From a virus, in IMG/VR virus record IMGVR_UViG_3300031565_000147, positions 1-38,361 of that record: DNA of 38,361 nt; one strand, 5' to 3'. The translations under genes and the position numbers were made by a program. Below the pieces are notes generated by a model that did not search any database, was not told the origin of the DNA, and saw only the letters and a list, made by a program, of their open reading frames with translations. This document shows positions 2,898-10,978 of the stretch, one piece after another (within the stretch, counting starts at the first letter, position 1; the number at the start of each line of letters is the position of its first letter).

Positions 2898-2928
2898 CAA
2901 AGTAAGTAATTGTTTTTGATATATCAAA
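2898..2928 (-). promoter_or_regulatory. Bacteroidota-type promoter for left operon
   Basis: On the minus strand TTTG (2928-2925) is followed after 19 nt by TTACTTTG (2905-2898), one mismatch from the Bacteroidota consensus TTTG-N19-TAnnTTTG. The first gene starts 28 bases downstream. The -33 element lies inside the palindrome at 2914-2929. Confidence 0.55.
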
Positions 2929-2929
2929 A
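2914..2929. promoter_or_regulatory. Perfect 16-bp palindrome, likely operator
   Basis: TTTTGATATATCAAAA is a perfect palindrome. Its two halves supply the -33 TTTG element of both divergent promoters, so a dimeric repressor bound here would block both. No matching second copy was noticed nearby. A regulator is not identified; the HTH-like protein at 2999 is a candidate. Confidence 0.55.
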
Positions 2930-2945
2930 CTTATTTATATCTTTG
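2915..2945 (+). promoter_or_regulatory. Bacteroidota-type promoter for accessory region
   Basis: TTTG (2915-2918), exactly 19 nt, then TATCTTTG (2938-2945): an exact match to the TTTG-N19-TAnnTTTG consensus. The first ATG is at 2999, giving a leader of about 45 nt. It should drive the plus-strand accessory genes. Confidence 0.7.
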
Positions 2946-2998
2946 TTTCATGTTTAATAGCATTTTTTTATATCAAGTAAATAACGTTTTTTTGTGAA

Positions 2999-3190
2999 AT
3001 GAAACATAAAAGTCATAACGTGGGAGAAAATCATCCCCGGGCCCGATTTACTGATAAAATGGTAAAACGAATGAGAGAATTAAAAGAAATGGGAATAAGT
3101 ATAAAAGAGTTATCAGATTTCTATAAAACTACATATAATCATATGTACAAATTAACATCTGAAAAGCATTATTTTAAACATTTAAACTAA
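2999..3190 (+). CDS. HTH-like small DNA-binding protein
   Basis: A 63-residue basic protein. It opens with VGENHPRARFTDKMVKRMRE, the same pattern found in the DNA-binding segment of many phage HNH endonucleases and related HTH proteins (GENHPRAKLT...), followed by a helix-turn-helix-like stretch, MGISIKELSDFYKTTYNHMY (residues ~32-51). No nuclease part is present, so it is either a stand-alone DNA-binding protein or a remnant. As first gene after the divergent promoter it is a candidate regulator of that promoter; this is inference from position. Confidence 0.6.
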   Translation: MKHKSHNVGENHPRARFTDKMVKRMRELKEMGISIKELSDFYKTTYNHMYKLTSEKHYFKHLN

Positions 3191-3200
3191 AAATAAAATT

Positions 3201-3359
3201 ATGATACCGATAGAATTAGGAATAATAGTGATAATTGCGGCAATAATAGTAGCCTTTTTATATGCAAAAATGATATTAATTTGGCGTAATGTAATGCTAA
3301 AACAAAATGAAAGATGGTTAAAAGATGCTGAAAGGCTACGGGAATTACGGTATGAGTAG
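3201..3359 (+). CDS. 52-aa single-TM protein
   Basis: A short frame with an N-terminal transmembrane segment (residues 3-22, IPIELGIIVIIAAIIVAFLY) followed by a basic/acidic amphipathic helix ending LRELRYE. It starts ten bases after the stop of the HTH-like gene and overlaps the start of the next gene (ATGAGTAG), which supports it being real despite its length. The topology resembles small phage membrane proteins such as spanin-like or exclusion proteins, but no family is recognised. Confidence 0.5.
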   Translation: MIPIELGIIVIIAAIIVAFLYAKMILIWRNVMLKQNERWLKDAERLRELRYE

Positions 3360-3558
3360 TGGAACAATTAGAATGAAATTATACGGAAAATACAGGGATG
3401 TATGGGTATCTGATACAAAGAATTGTAAAAACTATAAGTGCTTTCATCCACACAACTGCACAGTACAAGGAGCAAGGGGTGTTAGAAGTAGTACTGAAAG
3501 ATATATGTGCCTTACAAATGTAAATCACGGATGTCCAAATGAACCACAAACGCAATAA
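3352..3558 (+). CDS. Cys/His-rich small protein
   Basis: About 68 residues starting at the ATG that overlaps the upstream stop codon; an in-frame ATG at 3325 would add nine residues but lies within the preceding gene. It contains CKNYKC, HPHNC, and two further cysteines (MCLTNV..., GCPN), a pattern of metal-binding finger type without a family I can name. It ends shortly before the first palindromic spacer. Function unknown. Confidence 0.55.
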   Translation: MSSGTIRMKLYGKYRDVWVSDTKNCKNYKCFHPHNCTVQGARGVRSSTERYMCLTNVNHGCPNEPQTQ

Positions 3559-3580
3559 AAATTACTGCGTACAACGGTTT

Positions 3581-3679
3581 AAATATGGCAAGTGCCATCA
3601 CAGACTTTAATTAAAAACACTAAAGATTAGAATTATGAAAAGATTTACCCAAAGAATACGAAAGGCATTTGATATATTT
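3581..3679 (+). repeat. Inverted repeat around start of the 3635 gene
   Basis: AAATATGGCAAGTGCC at 3581-3596 pairs with GGCATTTGATATATTT at 3664-3679 (13 of 16, mostly transition mismatches). It is preceded by ACAACGG (3571-3577) and followed by GTTAGGCG (3683-3690), so the ends have the same AAC...GTT polarity as an integron attC. The first 45 bases of the 3635 gene lie in the loop. Confidence 0.5.
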
Positions 3680-4009
3680 TTTGTTAGGCGTATGTACGTT
3701 ATTACACAAATTGATAATGGCGTAAAATATTACTACAAGGGTGCAGATAGTAAATGGACACCAATTTTTGAAGGGGCTAAACACTATAAAAAGAAACCTG
3801 ACTTTGATTGGATAAGTGAACTTTGGCATAAGGTAGAAGAGTATGACGCATTGTTAGGCGTAGTTGCTTCTGAAAAAGAACAAAAGGTATTGATTTGTAA
3901 TAACTGTAAAAATATATGGATAGCACCAAAAGACAGATGTGATTGTGGATGCACTATACTAACAGAAACGCACCCAAGCAACTATAAGTATGCTCGCAAT
4001 TACGCCTAA
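3635..4009 (+). CDS. Composite small protein with C-terminal zinc ribbon
   Basis: A 124-residue protein. The N-terminal ~70 residues are basic with aromatic beta-like stretches; the C-terminal part, from about residue 74 (LLGVVASEKEQ), is a zinc ribbon with ICNNCK and DCGC. The C-terminal module matches that of the 7054-7335 protein (LLGV, then CKNCK, then CECG) although the N-terminal halves are unrelated. The segment encoding it is bounded by an inverted repeat, and the stop codon is part of the GCCTAACGG core. The 12-base string ttgttaggcgta occurs twice in the gene (3681 and 3851) in different reading frames, so it is a DNA-level signal rather than a protein repeat. Function unknown. Confidence 0.6.
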   Translation: MKRFTQRIRKAFDIFFVRRMYVITQIDNGVKYYYKGADSKWTPIFEGAKHYKKKPDFDWISELWHKVEEYDALLGVVASEKEQKVLICNNCKNIWIAPKDRCDCGCTILTETHPSNYKYARNYA

Positions 4010-4010
4010 C
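3853..4010 (+). repeat. Inverted repeat bounding the zinc-ribbon segment
   Basis: GTTAGGCGTAGTTGC at 3853-3867 pairs with GCAATTACGCCTAAC at 3996-4010, 14 of 15 (the mismatch is G-T compatible). A further copy of GTTAGGCGTA is at 3683-3692. The right arm includes the stop codon of the gene. Confidence 0.65.
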
Positions 4011-4071
4011 GGCTAAGGTATGCAGCGTTTGAGCGTTTTAATTAATTAATACAAACTTAAAATAATATATT

Positions 4072-4359
4072 ATGATTGACAAATACGAACTAATTGAATG
4101 TTTAGAATGGTTACAAGATAAAGGCTTTATTCAGTTTAAAGAAAGTGCAAAAGTTGATATGGTTGAAGAATATTTAAGTAATTGCGGTGGAGAAAATGCT
4201 GTATTACCTATTGTTATAAACCGTACATACAAATGTGATAGATGTGGTACTGTTTATATACCTGTAAGTGGAATTGTAAATGCAGGATGCTGCACTGCAC
4301 CAGTAACGCATAGAACTAGCGGACTTTGTGGTGGTCAATTAACAGAAATTACTAGCTAA
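4072..4359 (+). CDS. Cys-rich hypothetical protein
   Basis: A 95-residue protein: an acidic helical N-terminal half, then a Cys-rich half with YKCDRCGTVY (near residue 63) followed by AGCCTAPVTHRTSGLCGG. The CxxC pairs plus His suggest a metal-binding fold, similar in spirit to the other finger proteins of this region but not clearly related. The ATG follows an A/T-rich leader of about 60 bases containing the TAACGG-type spacer after the 3635 gene. No family recognised. Confidence 0.6.
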   Translation: MIDKYELIECLEWLQDKGFIQFKESAKVDMVEEYLSNCGGENAVLPIVINRTYKCDRCGTVYIPVSGIVNAGCCTAPVTHRTSGLCGGQLTEITS

Positions 4360-4429
4360 GTATGGTTTATAATGTTGAATAAAATATGGGATGGAAAATT
4401 AAGAACATTAACTAAATAACAGATGAATT

Positions 4430-4648
4430 ATGGAAAATGTAGAAAAGAAAAAAATTACAAAAAAAGAATTAATTGATTTCTATAATAAAATGAAATCTAA
4501 CGTAATCGAACAAGTTGGTTATATATGGTTACCCTCGATTGACGGATTTAAGATATTTGAAATACCTGCAGAAAGACTTGATCTGTACTTAAAGGCGGAA
4601 AGCATGCATAACCAATTATCAATTAATGAAATCAAAGAGAGTTCTTAA
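4430..4648 (+). CDS. Small charged hypothetical protein
   Basis: A 72-residue, lysine- and glutamate-rich protein with an N-terminal basic helix (KKKITKKELIDFYNKMKSN) and a central hydrophobic stretch containing YIWLP. It is the only gene inside the 4370-4752 inverted repeat. No family is recognised; no cysteine pair or membrane segment is present. The start follows an A-rich leader without a Shine-Dalgarno, as is usual in Bacteroidota. Confidence 0.6.
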   Translation: MENVEKKKITKKELIDFYNKMKSNVIEQVGYIWLPSIDGFKIFEIPAERLDLYLKAESMHNQLSINEIKESS

Positions 4649-4652
4649 TTTT

Positions 4653-4723
4653 ATTTCCTATGATTTTTAGTTAAGATTTGTCGCTTGTAAAAGCACTAAT
4701 TTACAGATAACTAAGTAGGAAAT
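4653..4723 (+). repeat. Hairpin after the 4430 gene
   Basis: ATTTCCTA (4653-4660) pairs with TAGGAAAT (4716-4723), and TTAGTTA (4667-4673) with TAACTAA (4708-4714), giving a long imperfect stem with an internal bulge and a 34-nt loop. It is followed by GTGCGAAGGCATAT (4725-4738), a motif repeated after another hairpin at 6776-6790. Confidence 0.5.
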
Positions 4724-4749
4724 AGTGCGAAGGCATATTTTATTCAACA

Positions 4750-5027
4750 TTAAGATCAATCGGTTTTGGAATTTAAATTTGATAATTATGAAAACATTAT
4801 TAGAAGCATTAAATGATGAATACAAAGAAAAATTTGCAGCCTTGTTAATAGTTGCAGAAATGTTTGAAAAAGAAGATGAATTAATATTTAAGGAATTACT
4901 TAAAAAAGCCGCTGGCTGTAAATTGATGATTAAAGAATATGAAGCTGAATTATCAAAATTAAATACAGGGGAGAAAGGAAGGGTGAGCGACAGCGAACAG
5001 CGAAGGAGCGCAAGCGATTGATCTTAA
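4750..5027 (+). repeat. Perfect 13-bp inverted repeat around the 4788 gene
   Basis: TTAAGATCAATCG at 4750-4762 and CGATTGATCTTAA at 5015-5027 are perfect reverse complements. The left arm overlaps the previous unit by TTA; the right arm contains the stop codon of the enclosed gene and runs into TTAACGG. Confidence 0.7.
4788..5021 (+). CDS. Small helical hypothetical protein
   Basis: About 77 residues, helical (MKTLLEALNDEYKEKF..., FEKEDELIFKELLKKAAG...), with a C-terminal tail of different composition (GEKGRVSDSEQRRSASD) encoded by a GC-rich patch at 4970-5018 that stands out from the AT-rich surroundings. The ATG at 4788 is preferred over one at 4725, which would lie in the previous unit. 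The tail may be coding only by read-through into the terminal repeat. Function unknown. Confidence 0.55.
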   Translation: MKTLLEALNDEYKEKFAALLIVAEMFEKEDELIFKELLKKAAGCKLMIKEYEAELSKLNTGEKGRVSDSEQRRSASD

Positions 5028-5077
5028 CGGATGGCAATATGTGGCGTTTTTTCTATGCCATATATTGCGTGTTAGGT
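5022..5077 (+). repeat. attC-like palindromic site (56 bp)
   Basis: TCTTAAC (5022-5028) at the left and GTTAGGT (5071-5077, an exact GTTRRRY) at the right flank a hairpin in which GCAATATGTGGC (5034-5045) pairs with GCCATATATTGC (5057-5068), 11 of 12 with the remaining position G-T compatible, loop 11 nt. Order, spacing and total length match the short integron attC sites (R'', L'', L', R'). Identification as a functional attC is inference. Confidence 0.6.
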
Positions 5078-5723
5078 GTCTGTAAAATAAAAAAATAGGG
5101 AAGGCAATTTTTAACTTAAATATATACAAAAATGAAAAAGAATTATAGAGAAATTGAATTTGGATTTGGAAACATCGAATCTGCTGTAAAAGAATTGAAA
5201 AGCCATAAAGATTTGGTTTGTGGAACATTTAACGGACAAATATTATACTCCGATATTGATGATATGGATTCCGCTTACAAAAAAGTAACAGGAAGCACAA
5301 AGGCTGAATTTGATGAAGCTAGAAGATTGGAAAATGCAGAATATGAACGCCAAAAGAAAGAGCATAAAGAAGCAATACCACAGTTAACTATTGAATGGAT
5401 AGAAAAAGGAAATAAAATACTCGACAAGAAACACCATAAGACTTGGGCTAAATGCGTTCCAATTAGACTTGGTGATTTGTATCGAGGAATGGAATTAGGA
5501 AACTGCCTTGAAATAGTTGAGCAATTAAATAAAGGTGCTGAACTTGAAAAAGTAAAACCACTTATAGAAGACCAAGGACACTCTGGAATGTCTTTTGGCT
5601 TAGTTTGTTCTATGGTAAAAGATTTTTGCGATAGGGGTGCTGAATTTGTTAGCTATGTACGTTAATCAAATGGTTTTGCAAAAACCAAGGTGCGGTGGGA
5701 TTTTTTTATTTTATTGCACCTAA
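5072..5723 (+). repeat. Imperfect inverted repeat around the 5132 gene
   Basis: TTAGGTG (5072-5078) pairs with CACCTAA (5717-5723) and TAAAATAAAAAAAT (5083-5096) with ATTTTTTTATTTTA (5700-5713), separated by 4 and 3 unmatched bases. The A/T-rich inner part alone would be weak, but the GGTG/CACC ends are specific and coincide with the neighbouring cores. Confidence 0.6.
5132..5665 (+). CDS. Conserved hypothetical protein, 177 aa
   Basis: The largest single-gene unit of the array. The sequence, with a central acidic helical stretch and a C-terminal half containing WAKCVPIRLGDLYRGMELG and GHSGMSFGLVCSMVKDFCDRG, looks like a widespread small bacterial protein family that I recognise by pattern but cannot name; no function is established as far as I know. 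The conserved HSGMSF and Cys-containing motif in the last third could be an active or binding site. It is flanked by inverted repeats and followed by a short GGTTTT/AAAACC hairpin at 5671-5686. A-rich leader, no Shine-Dalgarno. Confidence 0.65.
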   Translation: MKKNYREIEFGFGNIESAVKELKSHKDLVCGTFNGQILYSDIDDMDSAYKKVTGSTKAEFDEARRLENAEYERQKKEHKEAIPQLTIEWIEKGNKILDKKHHKTWAKCVPIRLGDLYRGMELGNCLEIVEQLNKGAELEKVKPLIEDQGHSGMSFGLVCSMVKDFCDRGAEFVSYVR

Positions 5724-5797
5724 TGTTTTGGAGAATAAGGGATGGTTTTTAAGCTGTATTAGAGATGAAATTTATTGTTAAACTAAAAATAAATATT

Positions 5798-6118
5798 ATG
5801 AATTTGATAAACATTGCAGATTTAGAAAACCCGAAAACGGGAAAAACTTACAGAGAAGAAAATAATGCTAAAGTACATAAGTACAAGATTGATGATCTAA
5901 TTGAAATTATAGCTTGGGATGAAGATTGTGAGTACGGAGGAATGAGACTTTACGTAATTGGTTGCGTTAGAGACTGTGACGGCACTCCACTATATGTACT
6001 TGGTAGCAAGGGCATGGAATTATATCAGAAAGCATTTGTTAAACCTGATACTTGCTATAATTTTAATTCTTTCTCGGGTTTTGGCGAAGAAAGTTTGAAG
6101 CTAGTTAAATCTGCTTAG
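5798..6118 (+). CDS. Small hypothetical protein, ~106 aa
   Basis: A mostly beta protein beginning MNLINIADLENPKTGKTYRE, with a central segment YGGMRLYVIGCVRDCDGTPL that resembles a common small bacterial family (RLYVV...RDCDGTPLY) of unknown function. The ATG at 5798 is preferred to the in-frame ATG at 5765 because it matches the family start and follows an A/T-rich leader. Three cysteines (positions ~50, 59, 63) may be paired. It is the only gene in the 5720-6260 unit. Confidence 0.6.
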   Translation: MNLINIADLENPKTGKTYREENNAKVHKYKIDDLIEIIAWDEDCEYGGMRLYVIGCVRDCDGTPLYVLGSKGMELYQKAFVKPDTCYNFNSFSGFGEESLKLVKSA

Positions 6119-6151
6119 TATCTGAATAATATTTATTCTCTATTAAATGCA

Positions 6152-6231
6152 GCTTAAAAACTTGCCCTTGATTCTTTAGTTAGAGGTTGTGATATTTGGT
6201 AAAAACCTTTATTAGAACGCAAGTTTTTAAG
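6152..6231 (+). repeat. Hairpin after the 5798 gene
   Basis: CTTAAAAACTTGC (6155-6167) pairs perfectly with GCAAGTTTTTAAG (6219-6231), 13 of 13, with a 51-nt loop. It is followed by GGCGTGAAGGAGTAT (6231-6245). The left arm is shared with the second inner repeat of the unit (5745-5756 with 6152-6163), so two alternative foldings compete. Confidence 0.6.
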
Positions 6232-6256
6232 GCGTGAAGGAGTATTCTCCAAAACA

Positions 6257-6342
6257 TTAGAGTTAATGATATTAGGGTTTTTGTGTGGAGGGCGAGGAAG
6301 CGGGCGAAGCCCAATTTAGGATGGGCGTATCATTAACTCTAA
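6257..6342 (+). repeat. Gene-free unit with perfect 15-bp inverted repeat
   Basis: TTAGAGTTAATGATA (6257-6271) and TATCATTAACTCTAA (6328-6342) match 15 of 15 and enclose 56 bases that contain no gene but a GC-rich patch including the small hairpin GGGCGAAGCCC (6302-6312). Both arms overlap the repeats on either side. Confidence 0.75.
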
Positions 6343-6450
6343 CATCGCAGGTTATATGAGATGTAAATTCTACAACATTGATTGATAAAAGATAAAGTAA
6401 CAAATTGAATATAATTATAAATTTAGTATAAACTAAAAAATAAAAAAGCG

Positions 6451-6654
6451 ATGGAACAAAAATTATTTACAGAGATGAAGATTAATAACGGAAATACTCA
6501 TATAATAGCAAGATGTCCAGATGAAGATGATGAAATGTGCATTACTATTAAGAATAGATATAAAGTTAATTTTAGTATGACGCTTCAGGAAGCTAAAGAC
6601 TTTGCAGACTTTATAAATGCACATGTTAAAAATGCTATTGAATCTAATAAATAG
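6451..6654 (+). CDS. Small acidic hypothetical protein
   Basis: A 67-residue protein: beta-rich N-terminal half (MKINNGNTHIIARC, MCITIKNRYKVNFSM) and a C-terminal amphipathic helix (LQEAKDFADFINAHVKNAIE). The same order, strands then one C-terminal helix, is seen in the 7494 and 7763 proteins of this region, but identity is low and common origin is not shown. It is alone in its unit; 190 bases upstream and 130 downstream are repeat and hairpin sequence. Function unknown. Confidence 0.6.
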   Translation: MEQKLFTEMKINNGNTHIIARCPDEDDEMCITIKNRYKVNFSMTLQEAKDFADFINAHVKNAIESNK

Positions 6655-6700
6655 CGGAGCGTAAGCTTTTATTTTTTATAGATTCTGAGTTGTGGAATTT

Positions 6701-6775
6701 ATGTCTTATGATAACTTAGTTAATGGTAGTTGTTAGTGGTTTGAAAAGAACGTTTCAGATACAGTCATAAGACAT
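6701..6775 (+). repeat. Hairpin after the 6451 gene
   Basis: ATGTCTTATGA (6701-6711) pairs with TCATAAGACAT (6765-6775), 11 of 11, with a 53-nt loop. Directly followed by GTGCGGAAGGCATAT (6776-6790), nearly the same motif as after the 4653-4723 hairpin. Confidence 0.6.
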
Positions 6776-6800
6776 GTGCGGAAGGCATATAACCTGCGAT

Positions 6801-6978
6801 GTTAAAGGTAATTGTTGTTTAGCCTTTTCGTGTGTAGGCAAAAAGGAAGGTTTAAAATTATCATGATTAGAGTAGTTACACTACCTAAATAGCAATAAAT
6901 TTAATGTCATGTATTTGGCACCATTTACTTGACAATTTTAAATAGGAAGGTTTTTAGCGTGAAACAATTACCTTTAAC
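6801..6978 (+). repeat. Gene-free unit with perfect 16-bp inverted repeat
   Basis: GTTAAAGGTAATTGTT (6801-6816) and AACAATTACCTTTAAC (6963-6978), 16 of 16, enclosing 146 bases without a gene but with a small inner hairpin (CCTTTT with AAAAGG near 6833-6854). The left core GTTA overlaps the 6340-6804 repeat; the right end reads TTTAACGG, then GTTAGC. Confidence 0.75.
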
Positions 6979-6983
6979 GGTTA

Positions 6984-7238
6984 GCTTAAGTGGAGTTTGC
7001 CAACAAATACAGGAAAGATTTAAACGAGAATATTAACCAATAATTTACGAGCGATGGGAAAAAGTAAGTTAATAACAGTAGATGATATTTATATTGAATT
7101 AGAATCAATTTTTGATAACTTCGAATCTGGTTATAACAGGAGAATTGCTGTTTATAAAAAATTAAATGAATTATTACCAAACTGGGAAGGGCGTGTTAGC
7201 AAAAAGAAACAAACGAGTGAGCAAATTCCATTTGAAGC
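6984..7238 (+). repeat. Inverted repeat around the 5' part of the 7054 gene
   Basis: GCTTAAGTGGAGTTTGC (6984-7000) pairs with GCAAATTCCATTTGAAGC (7221-7238) with 15 of 17 identities and one bulged base; the mismatches are G-T compatible. It runs from TAACGG (6975) to GTTAGG (7242), the AAC...GTT polarity of an attC, with the first 56 codons of a gene inside. Confidence 0.55.
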
Positions 7239-7335
7239 GTTGTTAGGAGTTTCGTTGCCTATATGTAAAAATTGTAAAAAAACGATGAAGATTGCAGCTT
7301 ATGAATGTGAATGTGGAATAGTTAGAGAAGGATAG
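7054..7335 (+). CDS. Composite small protein with C-terminal zinc ribbon
   Basis: A 93-residue protein with two parts. Residues 1-62 form a helical domain (ITVDDIYIELESIFDNF..., YKKLNELLPNWEG). From residue 63 (LLGVSLPICKNCKK...YECECG) it has a zinc ribbon like the one at the end of the 3635 protein. The boundary coincides with the end of one inverted repeat (6984-7238) and the start of another (7242-7350), as if the gene were assembled from two units. The stop codon comes before the terminal CTAACG core. Zinc binding inferred from CxxC and CxCG. Confidence 0.6.
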   Translation: MGKSKLITVDDIYIELESIFDNFESGYNRRIAVYKKLNELLPNWEGRVSKKKQTSEQIPFEALLGVSLPICKNCKKTMKIAAYECECGIVREG

Positions 7336-7350
7336 GCAATGACTCCTAAC
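7242..7350 (+). repeat. Inverted repeat bounding the zinc-ribbon segment
   Basis: GTTAGGAGT (7242-7250) pairs with ACTCCTAAC (7342-7350) 9 of 9, and TTGCC (7255-7259) with GGCAA (7335-7339) after short unmatched stretches. It encloses the last 31 codons of the 7054 gene, the same arrangement as 3853-4010. Confidence 0.6.
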
Positions 7351-7473
7351 GAATTATGGTATGAAAAGTTGCGGATTTAATGGTAGAACTTTTCAGCCTA
7401 CAACAAAATTAAATTAGAATTACAAACCTACGGATTGCTACGCACCCGCAATTTTTTATACCATGTGTTAGCG
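7344..7473 (+). repeat. attC-like palindromic site (130 bp)
   Basis: TCCTAAC (7344-7350) and GTTAGCG (7467-7473) flank a long palindrome: ATGGTATGAAAAGTTGCGG (7356-7374) pairs with CCGCAATTTTTTATACCAT (7446-7464), 17 of 19 with both mismatches G-T compatible. An inner hairpin, GAAAAGTT (7363-7370) with AACTTTTC (7387-7394), competes with it. Length and order are within the range of longer integron attC sites. No gene inside. Confidence 0.6.
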
Positions 7474-7493
7474 TTTCGTGCATTATTAAACAT

Positions 7494-7766
7494 ATGTCAA
7501 AAGTAATAGTTAGAAAAACAATCGCGACCAATTATCAATCTGAATTAGATTATCCAATTTACTTGAATTTTCAAAACGAAGATTGTTTGGATGAATTGGT
7601 TAAAGTTGACGAAAAGTATAGAATAACCGTAAAGCATAATCATTTTGGTTTTGAAATTGATTACTCTACAATGAACACTATATTTGAACATGACCTATGT
7701 AGTTTAACTACAAAAGAACATTTTGAGCAATTTTTAGATGAGGCAATTAAAATATTAAACAAATGA
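7494..7766 (+). CDS. Hypothetical protein, 90 aa
   Basis: Small protein with beta-rich N-terminal two thirds (IVRKTIATNYQSELDYPIYL..., YRITVKHNHFGFEIDY) and a C-terminal amphipathic helix (EHFEQFLDEAIKILNK). Overlaps the next gene by four bases (ATGA), so the two are translationally coupled and may act together. The leader is only about 25 bases after the GTTAGCG core, so the start codon is close to the unit border. No family recognised. Confidence 0.6.
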   Translation: MSKVIVRKTIATNYQSELDYPIYLNFQNEDCLDELVKVDEKYRITVKHNHFGFEIDYSTMNTIFEHDLCSLTTKEHFEQFLDEAIKILNK

Positions 7767-8014
7767 AACCTGACTTTTTTCAAATAAAAAAAGGATGCTA
7801 TAAAATCGGCATTAACCAATTTATATCTGGAATGGATAATAAACCAGTAGTTCGAGTAGAATGCGTAAATGATTATACCCACGCTCAGGATATAGATGAC
7901 GAATGGATAGACGAACAAATTTGCGCTATGTTTACATTTAGGAATATAGATGATTATGATTTATTTATTCAAAAGTTGCAAGATGCACGGTCGTTTCTTT
8001 TGCATGAACGCTAA
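7763..8014 (+). CDS. Hypothetical protein, 83 aa
   Basis: Coupled by ATGA overlap to the 7494 gene and of similar layout: beta-rich N-terminal part, then a C-terminal helix (NIDDYDLFIQKLQDARSFLL). It is acidic in the middle (DYTHAQDIDDEWIDEQ). The two proteins may be distant relatives or a complex; sequence identity is too low to claim it. The stop codon is part of the terminal repeat CGCTAAC. Confidence 0.6.
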   Translation: MKPDFFQIKKGCYKIGINQFISGMDNKPVVRVECVNDYTHAQDIDDEWIDEQICAMFTFRNIDDYDLFIQKLQDARSFLLHER

Positions 8015-8062
8015 CAACGGTAAGCATAAACAACGTACGCACAGTTTAGTATAAAAGATAAA

Positions 8063-8338
8063 TTGAAAAACAAAAATAAAAAGCGAAGCGTGGGAAAAGT
8101 TATTATAGTTTTTTTAAGCCAGTTGATTTTCGGATTCGTAAGAAACCTTAACACAAGATACGTATCTAAAGAAAATGTAAAATTAAGCGTGATAACTGGG
8201 TTTTTAGTAAAAACATCTTGGTTAGTAGCTACATATTTAGGAGTTTCTTCATTAATAGAAGGAAATTATATAGTAACTGCATTTTATATAATAGGTGGGG
8301 TGTTAGGTGATTATTTATCGTTTAAAATTAAAATATGA
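8063..8338 (+). CDS. Small membrane protein, two TM segments
   Basis: About 91 residues from a TTG start, or about 82 from a GTG at 8090; the exact start is uncertain. The basic N-terminus (KNKNKKRSVGK) is followed by hydrophobic segments around residues 13-27, 43-62 and 66-85. It overlaps the start of the PP-loop ATPase gene by four bases (ATGA), which argues that the two are co-translated. No family recognised. Confidence 0.55.
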   Translation: MKNKNKKRSVGKVIIVFLSQLIFGFVRNLNTRYVSKENVKLSVITGFLVKTSWLVATYLGVSSLIEGNYIVTAFYIIGGVLGDYLSFKIKI

Positions 8339-9093
8339 AACAATTTATAAGTTTTAGTGGTGGCGTTGAAAGCTCAACGATGTGTGTTTTGTTTGGAAAT
8401 AAAGCAGATGCTATATTTTGCGATACTGGTTTTGAACATGAAGAAATTTATAAAAGAATTGATTTGGTTGAACATTGGGTTAAAAACTTTCATAGATCAG
8501 ATTTTAAAATACATAGAATACAAAACGAAAAGCATGGAAGTTTAATTGACTACATAAAAGAAGCAAAGTTTTATCCAAGTTTCCAAGCTAGATATTGCAC
8601 TAGGATGTTTAAAATTGAACCTATTGATAAATACCTAGAGCAATTTAAAGCCGATGGCGTTGAATTAATGATTGGTTTAAATGCTGATGAAATAGAACAA
8701 AGAACTGGAAACCACGGAAATAAAAAGTTTGTTAAATATAGCTACCCTTTAGCCGATAATAATTTAACTAGACAGGCTTGCATAGCAATATTAAAGAAAG
8801 TTGATTTATATCCTGAATTTCCTGCTTATATGAGGCGTGGCGGTTGCGTAGGCTGTTACTATAAAAGTATAAAAGAATATGAAGCAATGGCATTATTGAA
8901 CCCAAAAGAGTTTAATATAGTACAACTTTTGGAAGAAGAGATTCAAGACATTAGAAAGGAGTATTTTAGTATAAAACAAAATATTACGATGAAACAAATA
9001 AAAGAAAATGTTTCTAATATGTTATTTAAACCAGATGATATTTATCCAATAATTAACGATGCCACAAAATGTGGTGTATTTTGTAACCGATAA
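8335..9093 (+). CDS. PP-loop ATPase of PAPS-reductase/DndC type
   Basis: A 252-residue protein with an N-terminal PP-loop SFSGGVESST (residues 6-15), which binds ATP and forms adenylates. It continues as in phosphoadenosine-phosphosulfate reductase-like proteins: CDTGFEHEE (29-37), RYCTRMFK (86-93), and a late Cys motif GGCVGC (169-174), plus CGVFC at the C-terminus. The added cysteines resemble those that hold a metal or sulfur in DndC-like and tRNA-thiolation members. Phages often carry such genes; the substrate is unknown. It is coupled to a small membrane protein upstream. The family call is confident, the reaction is not. Confidence 0.8.
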   Translation: MKQFISFSGGVESSTMCVLFGNKADAIFCDTGFEHEEIYKRIDLVEHWVKNFHRSDFKIHRIQNEKHGSLIDYIKEAKFYPSFQARYCTRMFKIEPIDKYLEQFKADGVELMIGLNADEIEQRTGNHGNKKFVKYSYPLADNNLTRQACIAILKKVDLYPEFPAYMRRGGCVGCYYKSIKEYEAMALLNPKEFNIVQLLEEEIQDIRKEYFSIKQNITMKQIKENVSNMLFKPDDIYPIINDATKCGVFCNR

Positions 9094-9103
9094 AAATAAA
9101 AAC

Positions 9104-9322
9104 ATGAAAGACGAAGAAATTAAAAAAGAATTAAAGAAATTAAAAGAACAAAGATTAGAAATCAATAATCAGATTTCCAGAATTGAGAAAGAATGTCAAC
9201 ACATATGGAAACATGGTTACTTGGCAGAACCTATTATTTATTGCGAAATATGTGATAGAGAAATACAGGATGTTTACTCCAATATGAGTAATAGGGATAT
9301 TGAAAAATTAATAGGAAAGTAA
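9104..9322 (+). CDS. Coiled-coil protein with Cys pair
   Basis: A 72-residue protein with an N-terminal charged coiled coil (EEIKKELKKLKEQRLEINNQ), then CQHIWKHG and YCEICDRE, suggesting a single metal site of Cys/His type. The ATG at 9104, ten bases after the ATPase stop, is chosen over an in-frame upstream ATG at 9059 that would overlap the ATPase gene. It may be the third gene of the operon with the membrane protein and the ATPase. Function unknown. Confidence 0.6.
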   Translation: MKDEEIKKELKKLKEQRLEINNQISRIEKECQHIWKHGYLAEPIIYCEICDREIQDVYSNMSNRDIEKLIGK

Positions 9323-9601
9323 TAATTATTAAACGTTTGGAACAAACGTAATGAGCGTGGGGCTTTTTATTTTAGATTAATAACGTAAGATGTTAATTAA
9401 ATGAAAGGATAAGTATGGTGTTTGATGCATTGTTATGTGGTGGGAATGGATTGTGCGAATTTCGGCTTTAGTTTTGCCGATTAAAACCGAGCAACTTTAT
9501 ACCATAATACTGTAAAGTTTGTGGTGTTGTAAAAGTTGCGATGGTTGAGGCAAAATTACACATAACTATGTTGTATATACCATTTAATTTGTAATTGAAT
9601 T
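9323..9601. repeat. Gene-free palindromic spacer with attC-like site
   Basis: About 280 bases without a gene. ACGTTTG/CAAACGT (9333-9349) forms a small hairpin. A larger palindrome runs 9415-9583: ATGGT, CAT and GTTATGTG (9432-9439) on the left pair with CACATAAC (9559-9566), ATG and ACCAT on the right, with inner hairpins TCGG...CCGA and GCAACTTT...AAAGTTGC (9491-9498, 9532-9539). The string GCAACTTTATACCAT (9491-9505) resembles GCAATTTTTTATACCAT in the 7344-7473 site. Confidence 0.5.
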
Positions 9602-9892
9602 ATGAAAGTAATTGAATTTGAGAGAGATAGTTTACAATTAAAATATTTAATTACTACTCACAGACTTATTGGATTTAAAAATATAGTTGTTTCAAATAAA
9701 AAAATATATCAATTGCCTTGCATGATAGGTAAAAGATCGTATGATTTAAAAGAAATAAAACCAAAATATCATATGTGTATGATTCATTATATTATTGAAT
9801 CAAAAAGATATTCAATTAAGCAATTAAAAAAATTAATAGTAAGATTTGATGATAAGATATTAATAGAAAAAACGCCATTATATCCGTTTTAA
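9602..9892 (+). CDS. Basic hypothetical protein, 96 aa
   Basis: A basic small protein of mixed strands and helices (KVIEFERDSLQLKYLITTHR..., KRYSIKQLKKLIVRF). It is the last plus-strand gene; its stop is two bases from the end of the convergent late operon, with no recognisable terminator between. The A/T-rich codon use is like its neighbours. No family recognised. Confidence 0.55.
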   Translation: MKVIEFERDSLQLKYLITTHRLIGFKNIVVSNKKIYQLPCMIGKRSYDLKEIKPKYHMCMIHYIIESKRYSIKQLKKLIVRFDDKILIEKTPLYPF

Positions 9893-9893
9893 T

Positions 9894-10052
9894 TTAGTTC
9901 AAATCTTCAATATTTACTGTTTTATTTCGCTTTAGTTTAATTTTATTATTATTAACAATTTCAGGTTTATCTAAAATTTTGGCATAAAAATAAGCACCAG
10001 AAATGAAACCTATAATAAATGCTATCAATACGAATATTATAATTTTTTTCAT
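9894..10052 (-). CDS. 52-aa single-TM protein at end of lysis cluster
   Basis: A short frame MKKIIIFVLIAFIIGFISGA..., one transmembrane segment or uncleaved signal anchor (residues 3-22), then a basic polar tail. Its start overlaps the stop of the holin-like gene (ATGA), so it is translated with the lysis genes. Position, size and topology fit an inner-membrane spanin-like component, but no outer-membrane partner is seen and the call is by position. Confidence 0.55.
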   Translation of the reverse strand: MKKIIIFVLIAFIIGFISGAYFYAKILDKPEIVNNNKIKLKRNKTVNIEDLN

Positions 10053-10261
10053 TTCTTTAATTCTGCAAATTTTGAGAATATCTTTTCCCCAAAAGAATAT
10101 GCAAGCAATACAATAACCATCGGCAATGCATCACCTAAAGTGACATCTTTTACAAATACTGACATTATAGCAATGAATATTCCTGCAATTGCTGCAATAA
10201 ATGTTTTCACACGAGTAGAGCTTAAGACGCCCGGTGATTCTTCAAATAATTTTGTTTTCAT
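10049..10261 (-). CDS. Holin-like protein
   Basis: A 70-residue protein with two predicted transmembrane helices (residues ~19-37, FIAAIAGIFIAIMSVFV, and ~43-58, LPMVIVLLAYSFG) and a short positively charged C-terminus (KFAELKK). Size, topology and position just downstream of the M15 endopeptidase gene support a holin, which permeabilises the inner membrane at lysis. No family-specific motif is visible. Confidence 0.65.
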   Translation of the reverse strand: MKTKLFEESPGVLSSTRVKTFIAAIAGIFIAIMSVFVKDVTLGDALPMVIVLLAYSFGEKIFSKFAELKK

Positions 10262-10278
10262 AATTTCATAATTTTAAT

Positions 10279-10623
10279 TTATACTATATTGCGCTCAAAA
10301 TGCGGCGTATCTAAAAAGTTTTTGAAATGTCCGCCCCATCTATTTAATTTATTTAAATTTTCCCAAAATATTCCGATCTCTTCCAATTCATTTTTTTCAT
10401 AGCAAGGTTTTTTGTTGATAAATATTATCAAATCAACTGCACATCCATATAGGTGATTTGATTCTTTTACTTTACTTAATCCTTGCTCAAAATACAAATT
10501 TTGCATTTCCTGAGGTCTTAAAACCTCTTTGATTGTTACCTTTAATTTTTTTACCCTTATTATAAAATCAAGTAATATATTAAAGTCTTTTGCAAATTCA
10601 AATTGATGATCTGATAATGTCAT
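10279..10623 (-). CDS. M15 peptidase endolysin
   Basis: About 114 residues from the ATG at 10623 (an in-frame TTG at 10638 would add five). It has the metal-binding and catalytic signature of D-Ala-D-Ala carboxypeptidase / L-alanyl-D-glutamate endopeptidase VanY-type enzymes: SNHLYGCAVDL (His and Asp about residues 57 and 64) and, near the C-terminus, RWGGHF...DTPHFE with the third zinc ligand His. It should cut peptidoglycan stem peptides and act as endolysin with the holin that follows. No signal peptide. The family call is confident. Confidence 0.85.
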   Translation of the reverse strand: MTLSDHQFEFAKDFNILLDFIIRVKKLKVTIKEVLRPQEMQNLYFEQGLSKVKESNHLYGCAVDLIIFINKKPCYEKNELEEIGIFWENLNKLNRWGGHFKNFLDTPHFERNIV

Positions 10624-10735
10624 TTTCTTTATTTTCAAATATATATTTTTCTCTTACCCTTATCATTAATTCTCTTGCCGAAATATCAGGATATTTTGTT
10701 TTTAGTTCTTGATATATTTCATTAAAAGATTTCAT
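10598..10735 (-). CDS. 45-aa basic protein at head of lysis cluster
   Basis: A short frame starting five bases after the end of the 239-bp intergenic repeat and overlapping the start of the endolysin gene by 26 bases. Sequence MKSFNEIYQELKTKYPDISA..., one or two helices, charged. The overlap and position suggest translational coupling into the endolysin. It may be real or a leader frame. Confidence 0.45.
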   Translation of the reverse strand: MKSFNEIYQELKTKYPDISARELMIRVREKYIFENKENDIIRSSI

Positions 10736-10739
10736 TATA

Positions 10740-10978
10740 CATGTTTTACTGCAATTGTTACATTTAGTTTATGTATATTTGTGTTATTCTGCATGAACTG
10801 ATAATCAATGAGTTACGTACTTTAAGTAAACTCACAATCATCAAAATATAAAAAATCTTATTAATCTTCATAAGTTGCACTATATTAGTTTGTTATATCA
10901 ATTATTAACTCGCTTAGGATTTTGTTCGTGTATAATTGTACATATTCATTTTGAATATGCGATTCTAAGAGAGTTAAG
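10740..10978 (-). repeat. 239-bp duplicated intergenic element, copy 1
   Basis: Matches 20686-20924 without gaps at about 91 % by my count (roughly 21 differences), with about 60 identical bases in a row (10861-10917). On the minus strand it starts at the stop codon of the upstream gene and ends at the position of the next start codon. Its first 73 bases fold: TTAACTCGCTTAG (10905-10917) pairs with CTAAGAGAGTTAA (10965-10977), 12 of 13, enclosing a CATATTC/GAATATG hairpin. Probably a regulatory unit (terminator or processing structure plus promoter/leader) for the lysis genes. Confidence 0.75.

Follow-up and report, generated by a model that had tools for sequence, protein, structure and literature searches.

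Small genes between unit-specific inverted repeats in a phage contig: a probable array of integron-like gene cassettes

The subject of this report is a region of small genes, positions 3571 to 8015, in a 38,361-nucleotide stretch of viral DNA (IMG/VR record IMGVR_UViG_3300031565_000147, the whole of which is here called the window), where most genes lie between inverted repeats of their own. Taken as a whole, the region is best explained as an array of integron-like gene cassettes, a reading to which we assign a probability of roughly 0.8. Related arrays were found upstream of a tyrosine recombinase gene in other phages and near relatives of this recombinase in Bacteroidota chromosomes. The window corresponds to bases 8642-47002 of the 47-kb IMG/VR contig IMGVR_UViG_3300031566_000076 and carries phage genes for portal, terminase, sheath and tape-measure proteins; it belongs to a tailed phage, and relatives point to a host that is probably one of the Bacteroidota.

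Six perfect inverted-repeat pairs listed in a preliminary description of this DNA were found to be present to the base: 4370/4734 (19 bp), 5720/6243 (18 bp), 6340/6786 (19 bp), 6801/6963 (16 bp), 6257/6328 (15 bp) and 4750/5015 (13 bp). The same description had held such repeats to be beyond chance, and this was borne out by comparison to 200 dinucleotide shuffles. Between 3500 and 8100, perfect inverted repeats with arms no more than 800 bp apart numbered 13 at a length of 12 bp or more, compared to a shuffled mean of 0.67 and maximum of 3, and four at 16 bp or more, compared to none; the shuffles were about 20-fold poorer in perfect inverted repeats. Six 4.6-kb slices from 9201 to 36800 held 0 to 2 perfect repeats of at least 12 bp each. 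Units in which a gene-flanking pair is linked at one core to a TAAC...GTTA hairpin numbered four in 2901-10000, compared to a mean of 0.01 and a maximum of 1 in 200 shuffles, and our detector found none from 12001 to the end of the window. A chance origin was ruled out by these comparisons of perfect repeats and linked units. The proposed chain of gene units, mostly with an inverted repeat of their own and meeting at a common TAAC/GTTA core, was retained with changes of detail. Imperfect repeats at 3853/3996 (14/15), 5071/5723, 7242/7350, 7348/7470 and 7467/8015 are present, that at 3581 is better described as a hairpin at 3573-3686, and that at 6984 was read by eye alone. Nearly every gene had been placed inside its own pair; this is correct for most genes, and no enclosing repeat was found for the 95-aa open reading frame (ORF) at 4072..4359. 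Neighbouring repeats do have 3-4 bases in common, with GTTA/TAAC as the core at some joints only and ATTA/TAAT at 4370, 4750, 5720 and 6257.

Within 3571-8015, hairpins separate small genes on the + strand. In the better-behaved part of this region, two kinds of pieces alternate. Hairpin pieces (3573-3686, 5026-5074 and 7348-7470) run from YAAC through a short unpaired spacer and a stem to GTTR at the end. Gene units start with the GTTR that closes one hairpin and end with the YAAC that opens the next, and the ends of each unit are complementary to one another. Hairpins of attC type are placed between genes as in integrons: three window hairpins are linked to gene units, and a matching arrangement was seen by eye in Polaribacter phage P12002L, whose attC2 was recombined by IntI1 (PMC9892861).

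In phage locus L015, a clean array of such units ends 53 bp before the gene of a 266-aa tyrosine recombinase, and L020 has another such array. A search with the L015 and L020 recombinases recovered 66 viral loci, both source contigs included, of which 62 were counted (L106-L109, weak partial matches, were excluded). Upstream of the recombinase, 249 linked units were detected in 260.7 kb, compared to none in 331.8 kb downstream; the same loci, each shuffled once, yielded three in 640 kb. After removal of near-identical recombinase genes, and with at least 1 kb upstream, units were present in 37 of 41 loci (194 distinct units, with none in 220 kb downstream). Twelve other phage loci, some with true cassettes (G017 and G019), had three linked units in 179 kb. 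The detected core nearest the recombinase lies 52-83 bp from its start codon in 27 of the 37 arrays, and the sequence after the core was seen by eye to be conserved within groups (most commonly TAACTATTATATA, with TAACGTTCCCATTTACTC in the L044 group and TAACTCCTATATGTAAA in another). As read from the sequences, this arrangement is that of an attI layout with cassette insertion. Different last cassettes stand at one junction in three of four attI pairs. The attI-like site beside the recombinase was found in related phage loci and not in the window. Gene direction was counted in 54 loci with duplicates kept, and of the 173 units that had an ORF of 40 aa or more, 164 are directed toward attI and nine away; therefore, the array and the recombinase can form one transcription unit. 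The phage loci do not follow the integron rule of cassette genes transcribed away from attI. Following the recombinase of L020, and before a DnaA-like gene, AT-rich TGTTGTA/TACAACA repeats were seen by eye (9760-9970), and a similar TGTTCAAC-rich stretch is present in L022 (9120-9310).

The unit ends were characterized in 124 distinct phage units that were chosen only as lying between two hairpins, with the profile drawn from 38 loci. When one end was compared to the reverse complement of the other, identity at positions 1-10 was 1.00, 1.00, 1.00, 0.92, 0.77, 0.80, 0.81, 0.83, 0.71 and 0.65 (the hairpin search itself dictates positions 1-3 and largely also 4), followed by 0.03 at position 11, by 0.77, 0.67, 0.73 and 0.67 at positions 12-15 and by 0.30-0.43 at positions 16-22. 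Shuffled partners gave 0.27-0.49 at positions 5-10, 0.04 at 11 and 0.29-0.55 at 12-15. The outer stem of these units consists of 10 bp, one conserved non-pair (mostly G.T) and 4 bp, and the integron R box of about 7-8 bp was not found in them. Left G with right T occupies position 11 in 95 of the 124 units, which gives a wobble on this strand and, on the opposite one, a C.A mismatch; the non-pair arises because a fixed base stands on each side. At the remaining positions, units differ in their bases but retain the pairing, a pattern taken as a mark of selection on the folded strand. The ends and hairpin of G017, when joined as a circle, gave a single stem with the TAAC/GTTA core at mid-stem and energies of -22.5 and -19.3 kcal/mol for the two strands, values that carry no shuffle control. 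A Vibrio phage integron (L184), with attC sites placed by BLAST and eight neighbouring pairs, served as a control. Its three closest pairs (399-641 bp) showed pairing over 8 bp each, and its five wider pairs (1155-2625 bp) matched over 3, 4, 5, 6 and 11 bp; we think that some of the wider pairs hold a missed attC site between them.

The recombinase family was compared to the integron integrase IntI in an alignment of 26 sequences (A2). L054, L096-L098 (one stop) and L102/L104 (17 stops) were excluded; other recombinases outside A2, including those of the array-less loci L061, L101 and L103, were near-duplicates or not chosen. R132, K157, H216, R219 and Y251 are kept in all 26 sequences and H242 in at least 90%, residues which we take to be catalytic. 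From the K patch to HxxRH, 53-54 residues were counted in 25 of the 26 relatives (one was not measurable) compared to 101 in Vibrio IntI. The IntI-specific stretch of about 48 residues, the I2 helix domain, is missing from the family, and BLASTP and phmmer alignments to IntI break at this stretch, as does the alignment to IntI4 (2a3v). The TIGR02249 integron-integrase model scored 116-205 bits in the seven relatives tested, all below its cut-off of 265, compared to 494 for Vibrio IntI. NF040815 was the best curated NCBIfam family, with 230-242 bits for three chromosomal relatives (cut-off 220) and 155-175 bits, below cut-off, for the four phage members tested. The best solved relative of the L015 recombinase is 4a8e, named XerC-like. 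On the sequence evidence, the system would function in the manner of an integron, but falls outside that class by the IntI-specific feature that its recombinase lacks.

In an even sampling of the phylum Bacteroidota, 117 of 395 genomes carry a relative of the recombinase (E ≤ 1e-45), and many of these relatives lie in longer open frames. Linked units were detected within 5 kb in 21 of 40 chromosomal loci (15 on the 3' side and six on the 5' side), compared to one unit altogether when each locus was shuffled once. The 40 loci were chosen by hand in list order, and some are truncated where the contig stops; only locus counts are used, because unit counts in this set were doubled where both strands detect a unit. 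Two earlier chromosomal sets had 20 regions each, of which 19 (with a one-strand detector mostly blind to the 3' side) and 18 were analysed. In the 18, where the array lies on the 3' side, 44 of 51 units have genes directed away from attI and seven toward it. Among chromosomal loci L164-L224, the array is more often 3' of the recombinase with genes directed away from attI, unlike the phage layout.

Comparison of related phages, which the preliminary description had proposed as a search for gain and loss at the cores, revealed that certain units are found again in their entirety, with cores of this kind at the junctions. At E ≤ 1e-5, the DNA common to G017 and G019 is limited to one 756-758-bp segment (1 mismatch) and a 52-bp stretch. 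The segment is a cassette, comprising a hairpin, a left arm, the gene of a 208-aa DNA methylase (PF01555) and a right arm, with flanks that differ on both sides and junctions at AAC. Its ends are 94% and 90% identical to window positions 5025-5107 and 5664-5723, where the gene is a different one; thus, the ends are kept while the genes vary. In L084/L085, L047/L048 and L063/L064, the same recombinase side is joined to a different last cassette, with the switch no more than 3 bases from TAAC. The cassette next to attI in L064 recurs, 97% identical, at an internal array position in L072, and its two junctions are at the core. Cassettes moving as units with crossover at the core, as in integrons, were in this way found by comparison for a few cassettes, with core junctions at both ends (L064/L072 and G017/G019) or at one end (L017/L019 and L063/L080). 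A blind all-against-all comparison, from which pairs with more than 4 kb in common were dropped, gave 35 internal, non-independent segments; a core-like tetramer was near at least one end in 30 of them and near both in 11.

These results are consistent with a mechanism in which the cassette would comprise a gene unit plus an attC-like hairpin. The right arm, hairpin and left arm would form one long attC-like stem, either in the circular cassette or in array DNA that is single-stranded. A recombinase, presumably supplied by another phage or the host, would act on the folded single strand, cutting at the mid-stem core and joining it to attI. Insertion would split the stem and leave its outer arms at both ends of the gene unit, where they would be seen as the unit-specific inverted repeats. 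The G.T, or the C.A on the other strand, may mark the strand that is used. Every cassette could have different repeats because the pairing would be kept and not the sequence. We incline, by a modest degree, to the wider proposal that the arrays represent a second, IntI-independent integron lineage, common in Bacteroidota and their phages, in which a XerA-like recombinase without I2 works with a longer outer stem and conserved wobble that replace I2 and the extrahelical bases, possibly near the pre-I2 state.

Ordinary integron cassettes, in the form of clusters of attC sites lacking integron-integrases (CALIN) and moved by a standard host IntI, are an unlikely alternative, in which the long repeats would simply be long attC sites. 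The hairpins do have the attC layout of YAAC, spacer, stem, spacer and GTTR, and the available text of PMC9892861 (Qi et al. 2023) describes attC clusters in phages, including Polaribacter phage P12002L, whose attC2 works with IntI1 (the recombination junction was verified for attC2 and not for attC1). P12002L was seen by eye to have the same layout as the present arrays, which suggests that a site of such layout is usable by IntI1. The Vibrio phage integron adds to this side, as complementarity spans 8 bp between its closest cassette ends and 11 bp in one of the wider pairs. By contrast, the present arrays adjoin a recombinase without the IntI-specific stretch (53-54 compared to 101 residues, with TIGR02249 below cut-off), and their outer stem extends over 15 positions with a conserved non-pair rather than about 8 bp. 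The window layout would fit a CALIN, defined by two or more attC sites with no integrase close by, if the hairpins called by our own detector, which is no general attC finder, count as attC sites.

Two further alternatives were weighed against the cassette-array reading. Were the repeats to act in RNA, with transcript ends pairing as a panhandle or serving as processing or termination sites, movement would be incidental; the co-direction of genes with the recombinase (164 compared to nine units), one terminator-like right end and the G-rich motifs that recur inside long arms would all suit such a role. This explanation gives no account, however, of the recombinase-side position, the attI-like site or the core junctions, and is considered very improbable. 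We give even less credence to small transposons or units like miniature inverted-repeat transposable elements (MITEs) moved by a transposase. Single genes within terminal inverted repeats, and a near-identical unit in two otherwise unrelated phages, are what such elements would produce, but the repeats are unit-specific, the core is common to neighbours and the arrays are anchored beside a tyrosine recombinase. Transposon-like units were dropped in light of this position and the cores.

Several results weigh against interpreting the region as an integron-like cassette array. The 47-kb contig of the window had no match to Phage_integrase or the related recombinase family, and the commonest attI-like sequence had 10 matches in the window with 12.2 expected, not above chance. 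Only one window unit, at 3853-4010, follows the plan to the letter; those at 5071, 7242 and 7467 do so once 1-2 extra left-hand bases are allowed for. None of the five longest perfect repeats (4370, 5720, 6257, 6340 and 6801) has a non-pair at position 11, their core is in part ATTA, and in three of them the gene lies in a hairpin of opposite polarity, an arrangement not predicted by the model. No linked unit was detected in four of the 41 phage loci or in 19 of the 40 chromosomal loci, and our hairpin detector recognized 0 sites in a canonical Vibrio integron, so that it cannot serve as a general attC finder. The position-11 non-pair also occurs in shuffled partners. The motif GTGCGGTGGG beside the right repeat, used as a probe, identified 11 loci and led to phages G017 and G019, and the paired arms around it beat 30 shuffles at only 9 of 15 places; arms were not above shuffles in L014, L020, L028, L030, L032 and one of two places in L026, and the place in L030 we take to be an unrelated terminator. 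The recurring segments of L017/L019 and L063/L080 have one clear core junction each, the fourth attI pair (L068/L077) has no clear switch at the core, and the blind segment comparison, with an expectation of 0.35 per end, amounts to mild enrichment only.

The five longest perfect repeats have G-rich motifs beside their arms, as do other units, and perfect repeats of at least 15 bp are a feature of other arrays (33 distinct in 187 kb upstream of recombinases compared to one in 196 kb downstream, 38 loci). Because of these common motifs and the long perfect repeats elsewhere, we think that the five belong with the other units. Upstream of the recombinase in L051, positions 3362-3704 form a palindrome of 343 bp that is almost perfect, its arms measuring 20, 28 and 58 bp.

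The individual features of the region, all on the + strand, are as follows. The attC-like hairpin at 3573..3686 consists of AAC, a spacer, a stem in which AAATATGGCAAGTGC is paired by eye with GCATTTGATATATTT, and GTTA (detector score 11.9), and its loop contains the start of the cassette gene at 3635..4009. The 124-aa product of this gene has C-terminal zinc-ribbon-like CxxC motifs (by eye) and no Pfam or PHROGs match. The ends of the gene unit at 3853..4010, GTTAGGCGTA-G-TTGC and GCAA-T-TACGCCTAAC, match exactly the plan of 10 bp, G.T and 4 bp. The unit at 4370..4752 (gene 4430-4648) has the 19-bp perfect repeat TAATGTTGAATAAAATATG with inner motifs GGGATGG on the left and GTGCGAAGG on the right, and departs from the plan in having no non-pair and a TAAT/ATTA core. 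The unit at 4750..5028 (gene 4788-5021) ends in ATTAAGATCAATCG and CGATTGATCTTAAC, lacks the non-pair at position 11 and is linked to the attC-like hairpin at 5026..5074; the detector chose an alternative left core for it at 4670. This hairpin, AACGGATGGCAATATGTGGC...GCCATATATTGCGTGTTA, resembles one in phages G017 and G019.

The unit at 5071..5724 has the ends GTTAGGTGTCTGTAAAATAAAAAAAT and ATTTTTTTATTTTATTGCACCTAAT, with one extra base on the left side and GTGCGGTGGG at the right. Its cassette gene (5132..5665; 177 aa) is without a family match and has homologues in eight other viral loci and in one Flavobacteriales metagenome-assembled genome, where the homologue is 76% identical and lies between similar ends, GTTACCTGC and GCAGGTAAC (ends by eye). 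In L024, L025, L026, L032 and L033, the motif GTGCGGTGGGCTTTTTTAA encodes the C-terminal CGGLF of ORFs, and a near-identical motif is non-coding at window 5690-5705 and in L020, L023 and L027; it is coding in some units and non-coding in others, and therefore seems to be kept at the DNA level. Four features that follow depart from the plan: the gene unit at 5720..6260 (18-bp perfect repeat; gene 5798-6118; second hairpin at 6153-6231 ahead of the right arm), an 86-bp hairpin unit without a gene at 6257..6342 (15-bp perfect arms), the gene unit at 6340..6804 (19-bp perfect repeat; gene 6451-6654; second hairpin at 6701-6775) and a 178-bp hairpin unit at 6801..6978 (16-bp perfect arms; no listed ORF of at least 40 aa wholly inside).

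The 93-aa gene at 7054..7335 has its zinc-ribbon-like tail in the next unit, which places a core inside the reading frame. The ends of that unit (7242..7350) are GTTAGGAGT-TT-CG-TTGCCTAT and ATAGGCAA-TG-ACTCCTAAC, with two extra bases on the left. An attC-like hairpin without a gene follows at 7348..7470 (stem TATGGTATGAAAAGTTGCGG...CCGCAATTTTTTATACCA; score 17.6). The last gene unit (7467..8015; genes 7494-7766 and 7763-8014) ends in GTTAGCGTT-T-CG-TGCA and TGCA-TG-AACGCTAAC, with one extra base on the left. The zinc-ribbon-like tails of genes in two units (3842-4006 and 7239-7335) read DALLGV...CNNC and EALLGV...CKNC, and the core GTTAGG is in frame at LLG. It looks as though a single tail domain had been joined to each of two different proteins at a cassette junction. 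When further copies of the tail at 3842-4006 were sought, the contig of the window itself was the only match. Outside 3571-8015, a strong extra hairpin without a gene is present at 9323-9601 (z-score -4.4 as DNA; ends GTTATGTG and CACATAAC), and three copies of a roughly 240-bp repeat, 82-91% identical, are dispersed over the phage contig (10744-10987, 20685-20924 and L002 1178-1421).

Database searches with the window cassette genes gave nothing above cut-offs in Pfam, PHROGs and NCBIfam, Rfam gave no match, and blastn of 2900-10800 gave no match among INPHARED phages. Relatives identified by the phosphoadenosine phosphosulfate (PAPS) reductase gene comprised nine other loci, which align to the window in that gene only (with a few bases before it in L011, and no DNA-level alignment for L007); a perfect-repeat scan of these loci revealed no comparable chain.

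If true, a natural hairpin-cassette platform without the I2 helix would make the origin of integrons testable, as integrons are held, in the available text of PMC7790495, to stem from a Xer-like recombinase that gained the I2 helix and with it the use of single-stranded hairpins. It would also explain the exchange of DNA methylase genes and small genes of unknown function among such phages. The parts available of PMC8618304 and PMC9668308 count Bacteroidota among integron-bearing phyla, and in that of PMC9024848, on IntegronFinder 2.0, the single complete integron named for Bacteroidetes proper is in Salinibacter ruber. One named integron compared to 117 of 395 genomes with a recombinase relative, and 21 of 40 loci with linked units, points to a blind spot of detection. 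In the literature covered, which left out preprints and most subscription journals, no account was found of cassette arrays with such an outer stem or with a recombinase that lacks the IntI domain. As far as the available text of the cited work goes, these two features, an outer stem that is longer and fixed and a recombinase in which the IntI-specific domain is missing, appear to be new, phage attC sites being already known.

The preliminary description knew of no described element with different repeats in each unit that overlap at their joints. This was too strong, as integron cassettes also have unit-specific complementary ends around GTTRRRY/RYYYAAC. Integron arrays and CALIN resemble the present arrays in their tandem genes with attC-like hairpins, the YAAC/GTTR core, the attI-like site beside a tyrosine recombinase, the pairing that is kept while sequence changes and the cassettes common to different genomes. 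They differ in an outer stem of about 8 bp rather than 10 bp, a non-pair and 4 bp, in having the IntI-specific stretch that is missing here, and in gene direction, which in the present phage loci is toward attI. Treponema chromosomal integrons, in the available text of PMC3607928, are similar in that integrase and cassette genes are transcribed in the same direction and in that the recombinase, as in the chromosomal Bacteroidota loci with a 3'-side array, is transcribed toward attI; they differ in having a recognised IntI, and the phage loci reverse the order, with array and then recombinase. Archaeal XerA/NF040815 is the best curated family for the recombinase and is named 'site-specific tyrosine recombinase/integron integrase', but the phage members tested lie below its cut-off and the match itself says nothing on cassette arrays.

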